Part shown: in pieces, positions 1 to 23,190 of the stretch
How the letters are laid out: each line of letters opens with the position of its first letter
Position numbering within the stretch: the stretch's first letter is position 1
NCBI GenBank assembly: GCA_016183425.1
Contig: JACPEP010000006.1
Coordinates: 62,001-126,000, forward strand
Direction: 5' to 3'
Length of the DNA stretch: 64,000 bases
Source: Chloroflexota bacterium
GTDB taxonomy: Bacteria > Chloroflexota > Dehalococcoidia > JACPEP01
Translations under genes and position numbers: made by a program
Notes under the pieces: model-generated
Databases searched by the model: none
What the model saw: only the letters and a program-made list of their open reading frames with translations
Told to the model about the DNA's origin: nothing

Positions 1-1
1 A

Positions 2-1195
2 AGACGCTTCGCTGAGACGGTGGGCGACATCGATCTCATGGGCACCGCTGCCGACGCAGAGGCGGTCATCCAGGCCTTTGTTCATCTGCCCCAGGTGAGA
101 GAGATGTTGGTGGCTGGTGACACCAAGGGCAGCGTAGTCATCCATAGTGGCCTTCAGGTGGATCTGCGCATCGTGGAACACGAGGCCTTCGGCTCCCTCC
201 TTCAGTACTTCACGGGGGGCAAAGACCATAACATCGCCCTGCGCGACCGGGCCCATCGACAGGGTCTTAAGCTCAGCGAGTATGGCATCACCGATATAAA
301 GACGGGTATTCTAGAGAAGTTTGATACTGAGGAGGCCTTTTACCGCCGCCTGGGGCTGCCCTGGATCCCCCCTGAGCTGAGAGAGAATCGGGGGGAGATA
401 GAGTCGGCGGAAAAGGGCGAGCTGCCCGATTTGCTTGAGTTGAGGGACATCAAGGGGGACCTTCATGACCACACTAATTGGAGTGATGGGCACACACCAC
501 CGGAAGGGATGGTAGAAGCGGCGGTGGCCCGGGGTTACCAGTACCTAATCATCTCTGACCATTCGGCGGGTCGTGGGGTGGCCCGGGGTCTCACTGTGGA
601 GAGACTTCATCACCAGGCAGAGCTGATTCGGGAGATGAATCGTCGTTACCCCATCACCGTTCTGGCGGGCTCGGAGGTGGATATTCGGGCCGATGGCTCC
701 CTGGACTTTCCCGATGAGATTCTGGCGGAGCTGGATGTGGTGGTGGCCTCGGTGCACTCGGCTATGGGGCAGGAGGCGCCTCGGATGACGGAGCGCATTC
801 TAAAGGCAATTCGGAACCCCCACGTGGATATTATCGCCCATCTCACCTGCCGTCTCCTGGGGGAACGGGAGCCTATTGAGGTGGATTTGGAGGCGATCTT
901 CCGCGCCGCCGCTGAAACAGGAACCGCTCTGGAGATAAACGCTATGCCCAGCCGCCTGGATTTGAAGGACGTCCATATCATGAGGGCCAGAGAGCTGGGG
1001 GTGCCCTTGGTCATTTCTACCGACGCCCACGGTCCGGAGCAACTGGACGTGATGCGCTTTGGCGTCGGCACGGCGCGTCGCGGATGGTGTCGCCCTGAAG
1101 ACATTCTCAATACTCGTCCCTGGCCAGAGGTGGCCGCCTTTTTGCGGAAAAGGGTCAAGGTGGCCAAGGCTGGTACGGTGTCGCCCACCTTTTAG
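2..1195 (+). CDS. polX: DNA polymerase/3'-5' exonuclease PolX, 5'-truncated by the window edge
   Basis: Family X DNA polymerase with a C-terminal PHP nuclease domain, acting in DNA repair. The reading frame is open to the first base and reads RRFAET before VGDIDLM, the palm motif carrying the catalytic Asp pair. The GTG at position 20 is therefore internal and the true start lies outside the window. The rest of the palm/thumb follows, then the PHP domain with its HxH metal motif (GDLHDHTNWSDGH), an SDHS motif and a terminal STDAHG motif. These match bacterial PolX; roughly the first third of the protein is missing here. A GCCCAC/GTGGGC stem spans the stop codon. Confidence 0.93.
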   Translation, partial: RRFAETVGDIDLMGTAADAEAVIQAFVHLPQVREMLVAGDTKGSVVIHSGLQVDLRIVEHEAFGSLLQYFTGGKDHNIALRDRAHRQGLKLSEYGITDIKTGILEKFDTEEAFYRRLGLPWIPPELRENRGEIESAEKGELPDLLELRDIKGDLHDHTNWSDGHTPPEGMVEAAVARGYQYLIISDHSAGRGVARGLTVERLHHQAELIREMNRRYPITVLAGSEVDIRADGSLDFPDEILAELDVVVASVHSAMGQEAPRMTERILKAIRNPHVDIIAHLTCRLLGEREPIEVDLEAIFRAAAETGTALEINAMPSRLDLKDVHIMRARELGVPLVISTDAHGPEQLDVMRFGVGTARRGWCRPEDILNTRPWPEVAAFLRKRVKVAKAGTVSPTF

Positions 1196-15180: not shown

Positions 15181-15219
15181 AAGGTGAAGAAGGTCAATGC
15201 AGCAAAAAGGAGCGAAAGA

Positions 15220-16878
15220 ATGAGGGGGGAAAGTAACTACTGGAAAACGATGGCTAAAGAGCGGCTAACCCGCCGCCAGGTGTTGGGGGGAGCCGCTAGG
15301 GCTGGACTGGGGCTGGCGGGCCTTTCTCTTCTCGGCTGCGCCGCCGCCCCAGCGGCCACGCCGACCAAGGCTCCCGCCGCGGCGGGAACTCCAACGGCGG
15401 TCAAACCCCAATATGGCGGCAAGATCATCGGGGCCGCTGAAGCGACTCCGGGCATGGACCCCGGCAGTAATCTGGCAGGCTCCCACGATGATCTGCTTAA
15501 AAACCATATCTACAATGGCTTGGTAGGCCTTACCGTAAAGGGGGAGTACGTGCCGGACCTGGCCGAGTCCTGGGAGAACCCGGACAAGACCACCTTTATC
15601 TTTAAGCTGAGACGGGGAGTCAAGTTCCACGACGGCACTGACTTCAACGCTCAGACTCTCAAAGAAGGGTTTTACGACCGCTATACCAGCGGCCAAAAGG
15701 TCCATAGGACGCCTCCTCAATTCGCTAAAGAAAAGATAATAAAGTCATGGGATAGCGTTGACGACTACACCGTAAAGATCAGCCTTGAAAAGGTGTTCGC
15801 CAGCTTCTTTTATCAAAACGTGGCCGCTCGAAGTGGAGGCTTCGTTGCCTCCCCCACTGCCCTGAAGAAGCAGAACAATGACTTGACGACCCAAGGTGTT
15901 GGCACTGGGCCCTTCACGGCGGGGGATTGGGTCCTTGACGATCGTGTATCCTTGAAGAAGTTCCCGGGCTATTGGGAAAAGGACCTACCCTACCTGGACG
16001 AGATCGTATGGAGGATCATCCCCGACCAGAACACCGCCATCAACATGCTCAGAATAGGGGATATCAACCTCATTCTCACTGTCCTCGTCAAAGATGCGTC
16101 CCTGCTGGAAAGCGACCCCAATGTCGTGGTGCGGAAGGTTCCCGGCAGCAAGCGGAAGACCCTTTCTTTCAACATGGTGAGGCCCCCCTTCGATAAACTG
16201 GCCAACCGACAGGCGGTGGCCTATGCCATAGACCGCAAGGCCCTAGCGGATGCTGTCTGGCAGGGTTTTTACCCACCTGGGGACGGTCCCTTCCCTCCCT
16301 CTTCCTGGGCTTATGACCCCAACCTTAAGGGCTATCCCTATGACCCGGCCAAGGCCAAAGAGAAGCTGGCAGAGGCGGGCAACCCTGAAGGCTTCACCGT
16401 AACCACGGCCGCCGCCACCGGCCGCCCTGACGAGATCACCATGTCCGAGGTGATACAAGCCCAGCTAGCCAAGGTGGGCATAAAGCTGAACATTCGCACT
16501 ATGGACAACGCCACCTGGACGAAAGCGCGGGACAAGGGAATCGAGGAGTTCCAAATGATGAGCTCCAGCACCGGTTCCTCCGATGAGCCTGGCTATCTCT
16601 ATTACGTGGAGTACTCGCGGTTTGGGAGGACTGACTTCTACCGGGTGGAAAACAAAGAGATGGAGGCCCTATACTGGAAGTCTGAGGAGAGCTATAACCT
16701 GGAGGAACGAAGGCCCTATCTCCAAGAGTTGGCCAAGCTGATCACCAGGGATGTTTGGTCTTTCCTCATCCTGGCATATCCCTTCAACATCTACGCTTAC
16801 CGGAAGGGGGTAAACGACACCGAGTTGGGCACCAACTATACCGATATTCGCTTGAAGAAAGCGTGGTTGTCAAAATAG
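15220..16878 (+). CDS. Family-5 extracellular solute-binding lipoprotein (second)
   Basis: About 552 aa from ATG 15220, preceded by AAAAAGGAG; a GTG at 15184, four bases after the previous stop, is in frame but has no ribosome site. The leader contains LTRRQVLGG and a lipobox LLGCA, followed by an Ala/Pro/Thr linker. The mature part shows SBP_bac_5 motifs: SWENPDKTTFIFKLRRGVKF, GVGTGPF and a YDPAKAKEKLAEAG segment. It has the same role as the neighbour at 9255: binding of a peptide-like or small organic ligand at the cell surface. No transporter partners are adjacent. Confidence 0.9.
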   Translation: MRGESNYWKTMAKERLTRRQVLGGAARAGLGLAGLSLLGCAAAPAATPTKAPAAAGTPTAVKPQYGGKIIGAAEATPGMDPGSNLAGSHDDLLKNHIYNGLVGLTVKGEYVPDLAESWENPDKTTFIFKLRRGVKFHDGTDFNAQTLKEGFYDRYTSGQKVHRTPPQFAKEKIIKSWDSVDDYTVKISLEKVFASFFYQNVAARSGGFVASPTALKKQNNDLTTQGVGTGPFTAGDWVLDDRVSLKKFPGYWEKDLPYLDEIVWRIIPDQNTAINMLRIGDINLILTVLVKDASLLESDPNVVVRKVPGSKRKTLSFNMVRPPFDKLANRQAVAYAIDRKALADAVWQGFYPPGDGPFPPSSWAYDPNLKGYPYDPAKAKEKLAEAGNPEGFTVTTAAATGRPDEITMSEVIQAQLAKVGIKLNIRTMDNATWTKARDKGIEEFQMMSSSTGSSDEPGYLYYVEYSRFGRTDFYRVENKEMEALYWKSEESYNLEERRPYLQELAKLITRDVWSFLILAYPFNIYAYRKGVNDTELGTNYTDIRLKKAWLSK

Positions 16879-17125
16879 GCTTCACTTGCCACCTTCCCTC
16901 CGAAAGGGGGGAGAAGTTTGGCTTGAGGATGCCGGAAGAAGCGGTGGGAGGACAAAGCCAATGAAAAGTAAGGGCAATTATCCCTTGAAAAGTAAAATAT
17001 CTGCTAGACTAGAGTCACTAAAGGTAAAGGCTGACTCCATAGTCGAAAAGGGGGTATCACACAGGATATTAACCCATGCTCCTCGGTGTGTTTTTTAACC
17101 TCCAAGCACTAGGACGAGCAAAAAG

Positions 17126-17890
17126 ATGATGGATGATACGCTCACACTAGCACTTAATGGAGAGGTAACGGTAGAGGAATTCTCTCGTTCCATCCGTCAC
17201 TTCAGTGATCTTATTACAGCCCTGAAGGACGAGGTCGGTGGCGGAGCTACAATTACATGGGTTATCTATGACCTGCAGGTCAGTAGTGCAATTGCTACCG
17301 TGCGCGGCCTGTCTAACCAGCCAGACAAAGTAGAAGATGTGAAACGTGCCTATATTGAGGTGGGGCGTCATCTCGAGGAGCGCACGCCAATTCCATTTGG
17401 AAGGTCGGTCCAAACGCCAGCACGAGGTCTTGTCAGCGTCCTCGGTACTAGAATAATCTCCATCCGCTTCGAAACGGCTGATGAAGATGTAACTGTAGCC
17501 AGCACTCAGCTACCGCCTGCCCAACTGGAATCTGAGCGGATGACTGCCTATGGAGCAGTGGTAGGGAGGATACAGACTCTTTCAAATAGGCAAGGACTTA
17601 GATTTACTCTGTATGACAGTCTTCATGACAGAGCTGTTTCTTGTTATCTCCAAGAAGGCAAGGAAGAGGTATTACGTGGTCTATGGGGCAGCAGAGTGAT
17701 TGTGCATGGCTGGGTTAACCGTGACTTGGCTTCGGGAAGACCAATCGTAATCCGCCGGATAAGCAGAATTGACTCCCTTCCAGATAAGCCTAACCGCCAT
17801 AGCTATCTCTCGGCACGTGGAGTTGCCCCCAGGTCACCGGATGACCCATTGCCCGAAGAAACGATAAGGCGAATAAGAGATGCCTGGTGA
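17126..17890 (+). CDS. Unknown protein overlapping a PIN nuclease gene
   Basis: 254 aa. No named domain recognised. Residues 1-100 look like an alpha/beta module; residues about 138-215 (GAVVGRIQ, RFTLYD, VIVHGWV) have the strand pattern of an OB-fold, which is an inference. The gene ends 11 bases inside the PIN gene at 17880, implying translational coupling. The stretch 17100-18320 is visibly AT-richer than the genes on either side, suggesting transfer. It may be the antidote or specificity partner of the PIN protein, though it is much larger than a usual VapB. Confidence 0.6.
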   Translation: MMDDTLTLALNGEVTVEEFSRSIRHFSDLITALKDEVGGGATITWVIYDLQVSSAIATVRGLSNQPDKVEDVKRAYIEVGRHLEERTPIPFGRSVQTPARGLVSVLGTRIISIRFETADEDVTVASTQLPPAQLESERMTAYGAVVGRIQTLSNRQGLRFTLYDSLHDRAVSCYLQEGKEEVLRGLWGSRVIVHGWVNRDLASGRPIVIRRISRIDSLPDKPNRHSYLSARGVAPRSPDDPLPEETIRRIRDAW

Positions 17891-18317
17891 ACGGCGCAAG
17901 CTCTATTGGGATGCGTGTGTTTTCCTCTCCTACATTGAAGAGGTTGATGAACGTATGCCAATCCTTGACTCCTTATTAGCCGACAGTGCCCTCACCTATG
18001 GAGATATTGAGATAGTAACATCAATGCTTACTGTTGCGGAAGTCGCCTTTGCCCCATTCGAGAAGGCTAATAAGGTGCTTGACCCAGATATCGAGAAAAA
18101 GATTGAGGGACTATGGATACCTGGTGGTGCTGTCAGGTTAATAGAGTTCCATTATTCCTTGGCAGAGGGGGCTAGAGATTTGGTTCGCATGGCTGTTTTC
18201 AATGGTTGGAGATTGAAGCCTCCCGATGCAATTCACTTGGCCAGTGCCAAAGCCATGGGCGTCGAGGAGTTCCACACATATAACCTGAACGAGTTACAGA
18301 AATTTGCTACCACCTAG
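17880..18317 (+). CDS. PIN-domain ribonuclease, VapC-like
   Basis: 145 aa. Conserved acidic positions of the PIN nuclease fold: D11 (YWDACVF), E54 (TVAEVAF) and D116 (PPDAIHLASA). The usual last Asp is replaced by Asn in TYNLNEL (N135/N137). PIN proteins cleave RNA and often act as toxins. The start overlaps the upstream gene by 11 bases. The partner is a 254-aa protein instead of a small DNA-binding antitoxin, so this is not a textbook VapBC pair. Confidence 0.8.
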   Translation: MPGERRKLYWDACVFLSYIEEVDERMPILDSLLADSALTYGDIEIVTSMLTVAEVAFAPFEKANKVLDPDIEKKIEGLWIPGGAVRLIEFHYSLAEGARDLVRMAVFNGWRLKPPDAIHLASAKAMGVEEFHTYNLNELQKFATT

Positions 18318-18461
18318 GCTTTCCAATAGTAGCTCCGCATACGCAGGTTCCTCGATTACCAGGGATGTGAGACTTACTTGTCTAGAGGGGATAATTGCCA
18401 AAATGAAAATGGATCGACTTCATGAAGGTATGATGTGCGGAAAAGAAAGGCGGGCCGGTCG

Positions 18462-18815
18462 GTGGCATCGTTAGCCGAAGCGCAACTGGTGCAGTTTCTG
18501 GTATTTGACCTGAAGCCGGAGGTGACGGCAGAGGAAAGGGAAGAGCTCCTGAAGGCGACCCGAGCCCTGGAGCAGATTCCCGGCGTCATCTCCGTTAGGC
18601 TGGGAACGACCCTGGCTAACCCCCCTACCCGCCGCTATCAACTGGGCTGCATCATCTACTATGCCGACATTAAAGCCCGAGAGGGTTTCTTGCCTCACCC
18701 CATCCATCGGGACTTCGCTGAGAAGTACCTTCGGATGACCAATCGAGAGGACCGCCTCAACTCCATCGTTGACCTGCGGCCATCCTCGGAAAGCCTCCCA
18801 TACAAGGAGAGGTGA
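18462..18815 (+). CDS. Dabb-like (stress-responsive alpha/beta-barrel) protein
   Basis: About 117 aa from GTG 18462; GTG 18435 in the same frame is an alternative start. The core resembles the dimeric alpha+beta barrel: VQFLVFDLKPEVTAEE, an ALEQIPGVISVRLG strand/turn and a Y-rich segment before a HPIHRDF motif. It shares this plan with the protein at 23239. Dabb proteins form dimers with a central cavity, and some act as cyclases or ligand binders. It is followed after 50 bases by the first of two flavoprotein genes, so it may handle their product. Confidence 0.7.
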   Translation: MASLAEAQLVQFLVFDLKPEVTAEEREELLKATRALEQIPGVISVRLGTTLANPPTRRYQLGCIIYYADIKAREGFLPHPIHRDFAEKYLRMTNREDRLNSIVDLRPSSESLPYKER

Positions 18816-18865: not shown

Positions 18866-20122
18866 ATGGAAACGGTAGTCATCGTTGGCGGCGGACCCGG
18901 TGGCTGTGCCGCGGCCCTCATCGCCGCCAAGGCGGGGGTGAAGGTAGTCCTCATGGAGAGGATGGATTCCCTATCCGGCGATTCCCCCTGGTGTGGCCAG
19001 CTCATGGGCTGGGGACCCCAGCACGAGTGCCGCCTTATGGGCGGCGGCGACTTCTACGATGTGTGGCGCTCCCTGGAGATGCGCCGTAAGAGCGACTATG
19101 GGGTTCCCGATGGCAATATCACCTGGGACGTCACCAAGGTGGAGGAGGCCACCTTGGCCGCTATGAAGGCGGCCGGGGTAGAGGTGATGCTGCGCTCCCG
19201 GGCGGTGGATGTGGAGATGCAGGGAAACCGGATGACGACGGTGGTTCTGGCCGACGGCCGTCGCGTGAAGGGGGACGCCTTCGTCGATGCCACTGGCGCC
19301 GGAGGCAGTCTGGAGATGTGTGAACAGTACGGCCAGGGGTGTGCCATGTGCGTGCTCAAGTGCCCCATCTTTGGCGATCGGGTGACCATTAGCGACAAGG
19401 CGGGTGTTCCCGACGTGGTGGAGCGGCCACCCAGCTACTACAGCATGAACTTCTTTGCCCTGGAGAGCTTCTCTCCAAAACTGCGTCGCACCGTAGCGGA
19501 AAACCCAGAGGGCTATTCCTACTTCCCCGTGCCGGAGGAATTCTATCAAACTGACTTCACTTCCCGGTGGCCCCGCCCCCAGCGGCCGGTGAAGGCCAGA
19601 TGGACGCTGAGCACTATTGAAGTGGTGAATGTGCGCTTTGCCAAAACCCACATTCTTCTCCCCATGGAGTATATCCGGCGCATACCCGGTTTTGAGAACG
19701 CCTGGCTGGCCATGCCCCTCGTCGCCTCCGCCATGGCCGTTAAGGGAGCCTCCATCCCGCCCCATGACAAGGCCATGAAGGTCATGGGGCTGGACAATGT
19801 CTTCGTCGCCGGCTTGCGGGCGGGAGACTACAGCTCCGCCGTTCCTGCCATATTCACCGGCGAGCTGGCGGGTCACAACGCCGCCCGAAGGGCTCTGGGT
19901 AGGGATCTTCTGGAATTGCCCCCAAGCACCATCCAGGGATTCTTCATCTCTAAGATTAACAGAGGTCGTACCCCAGCGGAATGGGGGAGCGAGAATCGCC
20001 CTCCGGACACCAGGTTTCCCGATGCGGGCTTCGATATACCGCGTTTGGTGGATTATGCCCGAATAAAGGCATCTGTTATGGATGCCGGTCTTATTGACGT
20101 CTACCAGCGCCCGTTGGCTTGA
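18866..20122 (+). CDS. FAD-dependent oxidoreductase (tandem copy 1)
   Basis: 418 aa. An N-terminal Rossmann motif GGGPGGCAAALIAAKAG with the acidic end of the second strand (VLMER) binds FAD. A DATGAGGSLE motif closes the FAD site. Four cysteines at C152, C159, C162 and C166 (GCAMCVLKC) could ligate an Fe-S cluster or be redox-active; they are conserved in the next gene. A LDNVFVAGLRAGDYSS C-terminal motif matches FAD-containing dehydrogenases. There is no signal peptide. ATG 18866 has AAAGGAGG upstream. The substrate is unknown. Confidence 0.82.
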   Translation: METVVIVGGGPGGCAAALIAAKAGVKVVLMERMDSLSGDSPWCGQLMGWGPQHECRLMGGGDFYDVWRSLEMRRKSDYGVPDGNITWDVTKVEEATLAAMKAAGVEVMLRSRAVDVEMQGNRMTTVVLADGRRVKGDAFVDATGAGGSLEMCEQYGQGCAMCVLKCPIFGDRVTISDKAGVPDVVERPPSYYSMNFFALESFSPKLRRTVAENPEGYSYFPVPEEFYQTDFTSRWPRPQRPVKARWTLSTIEVVNVRFAKTHILLPMEYIRRIPGFENAWLAMPLVASAMAVKGASIPPHDKAMKVMGLDNVFVAGLRAGDYSSAVPAIFTGELAGHNAARRALGRDLLELPPSTIQGFFISKINRGRTPAEWGSENRPPDTRFPDAGFDIPRLVDYARIKASVMDAGLIDVYQRPLA

Positions 20123-20186: not shown

Positions 20187-21437
20187 ATGGAAAGGGTAGT
20201 CGTCATCGGCGGCGGGCCCGGAGGCTGTGCGGCGGCTCTGGTGGCTGCCAAACAGCCGGTGGAGGTGGTGCTGCTAGAGCGGGCAGATACCCTATCGGGG
20301 CTCTCAACCTGGTGTGGGCAAATGATGGGTTGGGGTCCCCGGCAGGAGGCTAAACTCATGGGCGGGGGGGATAACTACGGGGTTTGGGAATCCCTGGAGA
20401 TGGATCGGAAGAGCGATTTTGGGGTTCCCGATGGCAACATAACCTGGGATGTCACCAAAATAGAAGACGCTTCCCAGAGGGCTATGGCTGAGGCCGGCGT
20501 GAAGGTGATGTTGCGGGCCCGGGCGGTAGATGTGGTGATGACGGGAAGCAAAGTGGAGGCGGTGGTCTTGGCCGACGGCACCAAGATAACAGGAGATGCC
20601 TTCGTGGATGCCACCGGCTCTTGTGGCAGCATAGAGATGTGCCAGCAGTATGGCCAGGGATGTGGCCTCTGTGTCCTCAAATGCCCCATGTACGGCGATC
20701 GGGTTAGCATAACGGCTAAAGCCGGTGTTCCCGACGTCCCCGGACAGCCTGGCTACATCCATTCCAACCTCATCGATTTGCAGAGCCTGTCCCCCCAGTT
20801 GCGCCGGCAAGTAGAGGAAACCTCGGGGGGATATTGCTACCTTCCCGTGCCGGAAGAGCTGTACCGAGTTGACATGACCGAGGACTGGCCTCGGCCGGAA
20901 ACGGCCTTCATGACCCGGTGGCATCACGAGGAGATCGAGATCATAAACGTCCACTTCGCCAAGACCCACCTGGTCATGCCTCTGAAGTACATCCATCGCA
21001 TTCCTGGTTTTGAAGATGCCTGGATGATAACCCCCCAGGTATCCACGGGCGAGCCCATTTCCTCCAAGCAGCCCGCCCCTCACGACAACACCTTGCTGGT
21101 GAAGGGGCTGGATAACATCTTCGCGGGTGGCCTCAGGGCCGGCGCCTACTCCTCGGGCCAGCCCGCCATGTTCACCGGGGAGCTGGCCGGCCATAACGCT
21201 GCCCGCAAGTCCCTGGGGCGGGAGCTCCTGGAGTTACCTTTGACTACTATCCAGGGGTTCTTTATCGCTAAGGTCAACAAGAGCAAAACCCCTACTGAGT
21301 GGCCCCCCCACCAGAAGCCAGATGTGGTTTTTGAGCAGAACGGCTTTACTGTTCGGCGGGTCACCGACTACCAGCGAATCAAGGAGTCTATTGTTGATGC
21401 CGGTCTCGTGGACGTCTACCAGCGTAAGCTGGCTTGA
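20187..21437 (+). CDS. FAD-dependent oxidoreductase (tandem copy 2)
   Basis: 416 aa, close paralogue of the preceding protein along its whole length. It shares GGGPGGCAAALVAAK, the STWCGQMMGWGP region, the DATGSCGSIEMC motif and the GCGLCVLKC cysteine set at the same positions, plus a near-identical ending (DAGLVDVYQRKLA). ATG 20187 follows an AAAGGA ribosome site. Retention of both copies with an identical cysteine motif suggests two related substrates, or a heterodimer. Confidence 0.82.
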   Translation: MERVVVIGGGPGGCAAALVAAKQPVEVVLLERADTLSGLSTWCGQMMGWGPRQEAKLMGGGDNYGVWESLEMDRKSDFGVPDGNITWDVTKIEDASQRAMAEAGVKVMLRARAVDVVMTGSKVEAVVLADGTKITGDAFVDATGSCGSIEMCQQYGQGCGLCVLKCPMYGDRVSITAKAGVPDVPGQPGYIHSNLIDLQSLSPQLRRQVEETSGGYCYLPVPEELYRVDMTEDWPRPETAFMTRWHHEEIEIINVHFAKTHLVMPLKYIHRIPGFEDAWMITPQVSTGEPISSKQPAPHDNTLLVKGLDNIFAGGLRAGAYSSGQPAMFTGELAGHNAARKSLGRELLELPLTTIQGFFIAKVNKSKTPTEWPPHQKPDVVFEQNGFTVRRVTDYQRIKESIVDAGLVDVYQRKLA

Positions 21438-21522: not shown

Positions 21523-23190
21523 ATGAGCCCCGAAGGGAACTATTGGAAGCGAGCCCTAAATCACCGTTTGTCGCGTCGCGCCTGGTTGGCCAGGGCATCC
21601 AGAGTAGGCATGGGTCTGGCGGGACTTTCCCTGGTGGGTTGTGCCGCCGCTCCGGTGGCCACCCCCACTAAAGCGCCCACTACGCCGGTGTCCACGCCGA
21701 GGCCAGCCGTCACCCCCACCCCCGCCGTCGCCAAACCTATCCCTGGGGGAACGCTCACTGCTACCATCCGCAGCAATTTGAGCGAGGACCCTGCCTACCA
21801 GCTTCACGGCGGCCACGATCAGATGGCCAAGTACCACATCTACAACACCCTCCAGAACCTGACCCGCAAGGTCACCGTGGAGCCGGAGCTGGCCCTCTCC
21901 TGGGAGAACCCGGACCCTACTACCTTCGTCTATAAGCTGCGTAAGGGGGTCAAGTTCCATGATGGGGCCGACTTCAACGCCCAGGCGGTCAAGGCCAACT
22001 TTGACCGGATGCTAGACCCCAATGTTAAGTTCGATGGCGCATCTAACGTAACAAAAAATGTCAATGCCGCGGAGGTAGTGGATGATGCCACGGTGAAATT
22101 GATCCTCAAGGGACCCTATGCTGATTTTGATATCAGCGTGCCCGCCGAATTCGGTATCATATCACCCTTGGCCCTGGCTAAGTACAAGAACGACTTACGG
22201 CAGAACGGCGTGGGCACCGGCCCCTTCCAGGCCGGGGAGTGGGCCATGGACAGCCACGCCACCCTCAAAAAGTTCCCTGGCTACTGGCAGCAAGGGTTGC
22301 CCTACCTGGATGAAATCAAGTTTCGGGTCGTCCCGGACAGCACTGTGGCCGTCACCCTCCTCAAAACCGGTGAGTCGGACTTCGACTTGGACTTCACTTT
22401 TAAAGAGATCCCCCTTATAAAGGGGGACCCCAACGTCGTCTTTGTGGTAGAGCCTGGGATCAAGCGCCGAGCGGTCATACTCAACATGGTCAAAGAACCC
22501 TTCTCCAAGAAGGCAGCGCGCCAGGTCATCGCCTATGGTGTCGACCGCAAGGCCATCTCCGAGGTGGTCTTCGGGGGGCTTTTCCCGCCCGCGGATTCCA
22601 TCTTCCCCCCCTCCTCCTTCTTCCACGACACTACCATAAAGAACTATCCCTTCGACCCGGCCAAGGCCAAGGAGAAGATGGTGGAAGCGGGGTATCCCCA
22701 GGGGTTCGAGTTCAACGCCGCCGTCAGCACCGCCTATCCCACCGAGATCCAAGTGGCCGAGATCATGAAGGACCAGTTGGGCAAGATCGGCGTAAAGGTA
22801 AATGTGAACGTAGTGGAGCACGCCACCTTTATGGATGCCTGGCAGAAGGAGACCAAGAAATACGATGTCATGATCATCTCCGCCGGCCACAGCATGGAGC
22901 CCACCCGTCTGGTGGAAAGGTACTACACCCAGAAGGGCGACTACAATATGCTCAAGGTGCCCTTCCCAGAGCTGGATTCCCTGGTGGACAAGGTCAAAAG
23001 CACCTACAAGGCGGAGGAACGGAAAGCCCTCTTTAATGCGGCGGACAAGCTCATTACCGAGAACGTATGGGCGGGCTGGATCTATGTCTACGAGAGCAAC
23101 TGGTTCGCCTATCGTAAGCGGGTGATGAACTACGTCCATGGCCCCCATCCCTTCTATGCCCGTTTCCGGGAGACGTGGCTGGCCAAGTAG
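21523..23190 (+). CDS. Family-5 extracellular solute-binding lipoprotein (third)
   Basis: 555 aa. Leader with SRRAWLARAS and lipobox LVGCA, then a long Thr/Pro/Ala linker. Mature domain with SWENPDPTTFVYKLRKGVKF, GVGTGPF and YPFDPAKAKEKMVEAGYP motifs typical of SBP_bac_5. It is closer in sequence to the lipoprotein at 15220 than to that at 9255. AGGAGG lies ten bases before ATG 21523. As with the other two, no cognate permease or ATPase is encoded here. Confidence 0.9.
   Translation: MSPEGNYWKRALNHRLSRRAWLARASRVGMGLAGLSLVGCAAAPVATPTKAPTTPVSTPRPAVTPTPAVAKPIPGGTLTATIRSNLSEDPAYQLHGGHDQMAKYHIYNTLQNLTRKVTVEPELALSWENPDPTTFVYKLRKGVKFHDGADFNAQAVKANFDRMLDPNVKFDGASNVTKNVNAAEVVDDATVKLILKGPYADFDISVPAEFGIISPLALAKYKNDLRQNGVGTGPFQAGEWAMDSHATLKKFPGYWQQGLPYLDEIKFRVVPDSTVAVTLLKTGESDFDLDFTFKEIPLIKGDPNVVFVVEPGIKRRAVILNMVKEPFSKKAARQVIAYGVDRKAISEVVFGGLFPPADSIFPPSSFFHDTTIKNYPFDPAKAKEKMVEAGYPQGFEFNAAVSTAYPTEIQVAEIMKDQLGKIGVKVNVNVVEHATFMDAWQKETKKYDVMIISAGHSMEPTRLVERYYTQKGDYNMLKVPFPELDSLVDKVKSTYKAEERKALFNAADKLITENVWAGWIYVYESNWFAYRKRVMNYVHGPHPFYARFRETWLAK

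Follow-up and report, generated by a model that had tools for sequence, protein, structure and literature searches.

The gene pair and its surroundings

The window (the whole 64-kb stretch of DNA analysed here) belongs to a 2.7 Mb genome in 52 contigs and carries two co-directional ORFs that overlap by 11 nt (Table 1). The upstream ORF specifies a protein of 254 aa, hereafter the partner, and the downstream ORF a protein whose match to the PIN domain family PF01850 lies over the cut-off. The pair had been singled out in a sequence-only reading, and both ORFs, their overlap and the assignment of the second as a PIN nuclease agree with what was described there. The same is true of the AT-richer island in which the genes were said to lie, as GC content, taken per 500 bases, is 47.6–50.4% between 16750 and 18499 and 55–64% in most of the neighbouring segments. 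The named relatives found by a pattern-limited scan of genome contigs are mostly from Chloroflexota, and the closest among them are Dehalococcoidia; the genome itself is therefore probably one of Chloroflexota.

Around the pair are two similar-looking genes for binding-protein-like products (15184-16878 and 21523-23190) and two similar-looking genes for FAD-oxidoreductase-like products (18866-20122 and 20187-21437), all judged by eye; from their sequences it looks as if part of a metabolic cluster had been duplicated. Beside the pair is a gene for a 126-aa protein (18435-18815) that has eight matches in its own genome, itself included, some of them close together. Among 40 related genomes (41 with its own), two have matches, both weak, too small a number for locating an empty site.

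Table 1. Features of the window copy, with the domains of the partner protein given in residues.
Feature	Position	Strand	Basis or remark
Left terminal-repeat-like sequence GGCAATTATCCCTTGAAAAGTA	16973..16994	+	12-base start occurs exactly only twice; likeness to L054 end
Promoter-like TTGAAA-14-TAGACT at left repeat	16985..17010	+	Counted by eye; putative
Antitoxin-like partner, 254 aa, ATG start	17126..17890	+	ORF list
Codons of partner C-terminal tail PEETIRRIRDAW	17852..17887	+	12-column matrix, p 0.001
PIN nuclease (putative toxin), 145-aa ORF, ATG start	17880..18317	+	PF01850, E 2e-7
Conserved PIN-family C-terminal stretch YHLGFPIVAPHTQVPRLPGM	18308..18370	+	Frame other than that of the PIN ORF; translation against 26-row family alignment
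Right terminal-repeat-like sequence GGCAATTATCCCCTCTAGACAAGTA (minus-strand reading)	18375..18399	-	Inverted copy of the 12-mer
Partner, ferredoxin-like domain	residues ~1-125		Predicted model
Partner, OB-fold	residues 137-222		Predicted model
Partner, C-terminal tail (helix)	residues ~223-254		Predicted model

Coupling of the partner and PIN genes

Coupling was counted over 400 genomes of the phylum. The partner was found in 22 of these by a search with the single sequence, and a profile built without regard to the PIN gene gave 34 places in 30 genomes. The coupling count covers the 26 clear places, with scores of 58 bits or more; the other eight, which include G069, G294:C336 and G101:C8, score below this. 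A search for conserved co-occurrence had been proposed in the sequence-only reading, where finding the two genes mostly apart in other genomes was held to speak against a functional pair. The search found a PIN match directly downstream of 21 of the 26 clear partners, and on this count the view that the genes are mostly apart is rejected. The five clear partners without an intact PIN gene are G109:C33, where only a PIN remnant lies beside the partner, G165 and G181, where the N-terminal half of the partner is missing, and G023 and G229. In the reverse direction, a partner adjoins every one of the 21 top-scoring PIN places (67 bits or more). This figure is partly circular, as the PIN profile was built with proteins encoded next to partners and 12 of the 21 are among its rows; nine are not.

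The pattern-limited scan of genome contigs gave 16 loci, 14 of them with a PIN gene directly downstream; the locus L063 ends about 100 bases behind its partner match. In L068 (3386-4366), the OB-fold and tail of the family are attached to a different N-terminal region, and no PIN gene was found in the locus. Among viral contigs (IMG/VR), there are four partner loci, and a PIN gene lies directly downstream in all four. These sets overlap to some extent, L059, L060, L067 and L069 being places already found in the single-sequence search and L006 the same place as L067. Carriage of the window partner by plasmids or phages was considered and set aside, as tblastn searches of plasmids and phages with this protein gave no match, though the four IMG/VR contigs hold relatives. 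Scans of the viral contigs using the partners of L048 and L012, or the terminal repeat of L054, returned nothing useful. In the 41 nearer genomes, partner matches are present in five, the window's own genome included, and those of G404, G412 and G414 are partial.

Distances between partners and distances between the adjoining PIN proteins are correlated over 27 distinct pairs (r 0.895; 0 of 2000 permutations), a set that leaves out four second copies, the partial partners L055 and L065, and loci without both proteins. For 18 of the 27 pairs, the pair with the closest partner is also one of the two with the closest PIN proteins. Species history may also yield a correlation of this kind.

Predicted structure of the partner

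The 254-aa partner matches no Pfam family at E values up to 10 and no NCBIfam family over its cut-off, and by these two collections it belongs to none of the DNA-binding sequence families found in VapB antitoxins (AbrB, RHH, HTH, Phd). The absence of such matches rules out a known VapB. Neither it nor the PIN protein matches any family among the PADLOC models, and Panacea or a known defence protein is likewise ruled out by the lack of Pfam and PADLOC matches.

An AlphaFold2 model of the whole protein (pLDDT 85.3, pTM 0.52) divides it into the three parts listed in Table 1. When residues 1-130 were folded alone, the values rose to pLDDT 93.6 and pTM 0.88, and this part has a ferredoxin-like look. 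Structural searches gave it no firm relative (Foldseek E 0.023 at best; Z 7.0 or less), a result that excludes nothing. The predicted OB-fold is like those of SSB, PriB and the anticodon domains of synthetases (best Z 9.1, rmsd 4.0 over 82 residues), and the model thus lends support to the OB-fold that had been suspected from the sequence. The further claim that the partner is not a VapB-type antitoxin stands for the body of the protein, which has no known DNA-binding family and a predicted OB-fold, but not for its C-terminal tail, which resembles those of VapB proteins. Judged by sequence, the partner and its relatives look like a new, previously undescribed antitoxin family. Antitoxins of PIN toxins that were earlier reported as new are HTH, AbrB, RHH or MerR proteins (PMC2701414, section 9).

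The C-terminal tail of the partner

A type II antitoxin is usually a small protein that binds DNA and plugs the toxin with its tail. Upstream of the 30 PIN places ranked 22-51 lie ORFs of other kinds, most of them short, and 27 of the 30 have an R-x-x-W motif near the C-terminus (by eye). Three of these ORFs were compared with Pfam; one matches MazE_antitoxin over the cut-off and two have no match. A 170-aa ORF with an R-x-x-W tail precedes the PIN gene in L115, and is perhaps another unusual antitoxin body.

A tail matrix of 12 columns was made from 17 of the 30, conventional antitoxin-like proteins that lie beside related PIN proteins. The last 12 residues of the window partner are the best-scoring segment of the whole protein (p 0.001 in 1000 shuffles). 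Of 34 partner rows, 26 have their best match at the C-terminal end (p 0.05 or less in 19 of them) and eight have it elsewhere. These rows are all related; only identical ones were dropped, and three second copies of one locus that differ in their first residues stayed in the set (25 of 31 are C-terminal without them). The tryptophan is kept by few partners, most of their tails being without it. In L006 (the same place as L067) and L007 the partner has no tail and is separated by an 8-nt gap from the PIN gene, which is kept, so that a different route of neutralisation is possible in these.

The likeness to VapB can be set beside the structure of Shigella VapBC, in which Arg64 of VapB contacts Asp7, Glu42 and Asp98 of VapC, and the tail arginine appears to replace a metal (PMC3384007).

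The PIN protein

Three catalytic acids of the PIN protein (D11, E54 and D116) are invariant in the 26 aligned members of the family. At the fourth acid position, Asp is found in 22 members, Asn in two (the window copy and L065), Ser in one and Glu in one. The window protein has Asn at residue 135, as had been read from the sequence, and since four of the 26 rows, window included, have Asn, Ser or Glu here, the substitution would not by itself have to inactivate it. At the end of the PIN ORF, the conserved C-terminus of the family is found in another frame (Table 1), and the window copy may be decaying, the 3' end of the PIN gene perhaps being damaged.

IS1595 elements carrying the pair

In some genomes the pair travels as cargo of IS1595-family transposons. 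Two complete elements are evident. That of L054 (JACVQK010000018.1) is 2457 bp long, with 23 of 24 terminal bases matching and an 8-bp duplication, TAAGTCAA; that of L060 (JAJPIZ010000011.1) is 2712 bp long, with 20 of 24 terminal bases matching and an 8-bp duplication, TTGTTTAT. Neither result was equalled in shuffled sequences (0/60 in each case). Inside both elements, the pair lies directly behind a gene for an IS1595 transposase (PF12762; E 4e-48 in L054 and 4.6e-42 in L060), so that the two have the transposase, terminal repeats and 8-bp target duplication by which an IS1595 transposon is recognised. An IS1595 transposase is also present upstream of the pair in L057, which brings the loci with a transposase recognised beside the pair to at least three of the 16 with flanks listed, the searches having covered a minority of the other flanking ORFs. 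The ends of the two elements (2864-2920 in L054; 2985-3030 in L060) carry promoter-like sequences that point into the element, TTGACA-17-TAGACT and TTGACA-17-TAATAT, respectively (counted by eye).

A search for terminal repeats accompanied by an exact duplication covered 22 stretches, among them the window and, under the two names L003 and L059, a single locus in duplicate. In several stretches the flanking DNA extends for no more than 1.5 kb, and L055 and L057, which lie at contig ends, fell outside the search. Such repeats are clear only in L054 and L060. In L062 and L072, 14 of 24 terminal bases match (1/60 shuffles), which is not claimed among 22 tests.

Repeats around the window copy

The window pair is bracketed by an inverted 12-mer, GGCAATTATCCC, which is found at 16973 (+) and 18399 (-), and these are its sole exact copies in the genome. 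Neither this repeat nor the displaced PIN C-terminus had been mentioned in the sequence-only reading. Two such 12-mer matches within the 64-kb window were obtained in 6 of 100 shuffles. Of all sites in the genome, the left repeat comes closest to the outermost 16 bases of the L054 element, with 1 mismatch, and the right repeat, which differs from that 16-mer at four places, is for this reason absent from the genome matches listed for it. By more general tests the inverted repeat is unremarkable. Being under the 14-nt limit of the repeat search, it was unreported there. Over 20 nt, 15 bases agree, and 17 of 100 shuffles were as good; the search that included an exact 8-bp duplication gave 11 of 24 terminal bases in the window (45/60 shuffles). 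There is no exact 8-bp target duplication with matching ends at the window copy; the flanks of its repeats, AAAAGTAA and AAAATGAA, agree in six of eight positions (by eye).

No IS1595 transposase was detected between the repeats, either in the ORF list or when both intergenic stretches were read in all six frames. The only PF12762 match in the genome (L176) is on another contig, and this transposase has no repeat like that of the window. Because of their uniqueness in the genome, their position and their likeness to L054, the window repeats may be the remaining ends of a transposon, and we infer that the stretch between them is a copy without transposase.

Distant relatives with other tails and toxins

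Distant relatives of the partner are about 300–380 aa long and align with it over 214 columns of the body (hhalign E 1.4e-15). Most of the body is kept in 12 loci (L124-L135). Downstream of it is a PIN ORF of another type in seven (L124, L125, L127, L128, L130, L131 and L133), a broken or partial PIN ORF in four (L126, L129, L134 and L135) and, in the single case of L132, a RelE/ParE-like protein (PF06296 and PF05016, over cut-off). Several of these PIN assignments were made by eye; Pfam confirmed those of L048/L124, L053/L125 and L131, and that of L128 was confirmed separately. The PIN protein of L048 is nearest to the tRNA(fMet) VapC models, yet below their cut-offs.

The profile that gave the distant relatives also finds the tail of this branch in the short antitoxin-like proteins L136, L137 and L141 (31–48 bits). 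Behind L137 lies a VapC of the distant-branch type, and none was seen behind L136 or L141. The same tail is carried by a 140-aa ORF ahead of the VapC gene of L147 (by eye). In the cases seen, then, the type of toxin goes with the tail, while the body is shared. Searches of plasmids with two distant partners gave no match. In L139 (1378-2487), a body without tail lies behind an N-terminal extension, and the next ORF is ribbon-helix-helix-like (by eye); this protein matches five plasmid records, four of them cyanobacterial, over residues 1-125, that is, the N-terminal extension only, and has no match among phages.

Discussion

The two genes probably form a type II toxin-antitoxin module, consisting of a VapC-like PIN toxin and an antitoxin with an OB-fold body and a VapB-like plugging tail, which is carried as IS1595 cargo and is present in the window as a copy without transposase. 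A new toxin-antitoxin pair had been one of the suggestions of the initial reading, and the conserved coupling, the VapB-like tail and the apparent co-inheritance of the two proteins all point towards it. Under this interpretation, the PIN protein would be a metal-dependent RNase of the VapC kind, as suggested by its domain and conserved acids, and the 254-aa protein its antitoxin, with the C-terminal tail binding the toxin. The conserved arginine of the tail would enter the acidic active site of the PIN protein, as Arg64 of VapB does in the Shigella complex. In place of the DNA-binding domain of VapB, the antitoxin would have its ferredoxin-like and OB-fold body, which probably binds nucleic acid or some other ligand and may in this way govern how the toxin is released or made. 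The module would move as cargo of IS1595 elements, the window being a copy that lacks the transposase and in which the 3' end of the PIN gene may be damaged. Toxicity, neutralisation, the target of the RNase and the role of the OB-fold are what we infer in this scheme.

As in VapBC systems (including FitAB), the PIN toxin gene is directly downstream of its partner gene, here overlapping it, the tail of the partner has a conserved arginine, and the first three catalytic acids are kept. The features by which such a module is recognised from sequence, a PIN toxin with its acids and adjacent, co-directional genes, are both present. The difference lies in the window partner, which is 254 aa long, has a ferredoxin-like and OB-fold body and falls into no recognised family of DNA-binding proteins. 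The open-access literature on OB-fold antitoxins of PIN toxins has nothing on this pair among the titles and abstract beginnings listed, and the pair is not described among the matches listed for PIN pairs of Chloroflexi and transposons or for passengers of IS1595.

The similarity of the OB-fold to SSB, PriB and synthetase anticodon domains, together with the lack of a DNA-binding antitoxin family by sequence, could also fit a defence pair, in which the OB-fold senses invading single-stranded nucleic acid and frees the PIN protein to cut RNA against phages. We think this rather unlikely, given that neither protein matches PADLOC, and a fold alone shows no function and is compatible with a toxin-antitoxin module too. 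If, instead, the pair were an accessory of transposition, for instance by regulating the IS1595 element or acting as its nuclease, its place directly behind the transposase in the complete elements of L054 and L060, and behind that of L057, would be explained; yet a transposase was recognised at three of the 16 loci with flanks listed, the partner has a VapB-like tail, and the toxins beside distant bodies are VapC proteins of other types and, in one case, RelE, all of which makes this very improbable. A PIN protein and an OB-fold protein are a plausible combination for an RNase, and a housekeeping nuclease for RNA processing with an RNA-binding partner may be imagined, but the patchy distribution (30 of 400 genomes), the flanks that differ between loci and the transposon cargo in two of them leave it scarcely credible.

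The window copy may, on another reading, be dead, that is, a remnant of an element without transposase in which the PIN C-terminus was lost by a frameshift and the antitoxin alone is intact. The displaced frame of the conserved PIN residues, the lack of a transposase ORF in the bracketed stretch, and PIN genes that are broken or missing in relatives (L008, L010 and L015) all favour this, and we regard it as a serious possibility towards which we do not quite lean. The partner ORF and three catalytic acids of the window PIN protein are intact, and a one-base error in the draft genome could produce the same picture of frames.

Returning to the toxin-antitoxin module, carriage of such pairs by transposons has a precedent in the Tn3 family, members of which carry type II pairs as cargo, PIN toxins among them (PMC7157771). 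The carriers here belong instead to the IS1595 family, and the antitoxin lies outside the six antitoxin families of that study. The L054 and L060 elements share with IS1595 insertion sequences the DDE_Tnp_IS1595 and zinc-ribbon domains, terminal inverted repeats and 8-bp duplications, and differ from them by holding a two-gene toxin-antitoxin cargo, while the window copy has no transposase. A body that is paired with different toxins, here two PIN types and one RelE, recalls the Panacea antitoxins (PanA), of which multidomain forms neutralise by separate domains (PMC10440598); in contrast to these, the bodies tested have no Pfam match, PanA (DUF4065) is absent, and the toxin types seen are far fewer. 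It is tempting, if somewhat speculative, to view the ferredoxin-like and OB-fold body as a portable antitoxin scaffold in the manner of Panacea, which exchanges its C-terminal tail to suit at least two PIN types and RelE, has ligand sensing by the OB-fold where others have a DNA-binding domain, and has spread in Chloroflexota partly as IS1595 cargo, with the terminal repeats supplying a promoter.

The complete IS1595 elements of L054 and L060, with the pair inside and target duplications at their ends, represent a concrete route of spread. A similar tail on an OB-fold body, with relatives that have other tails, would part toxin binding from gene regulation, and a family with swapped tails would permit direct tests of how antitoxins evolve through tail exchange.
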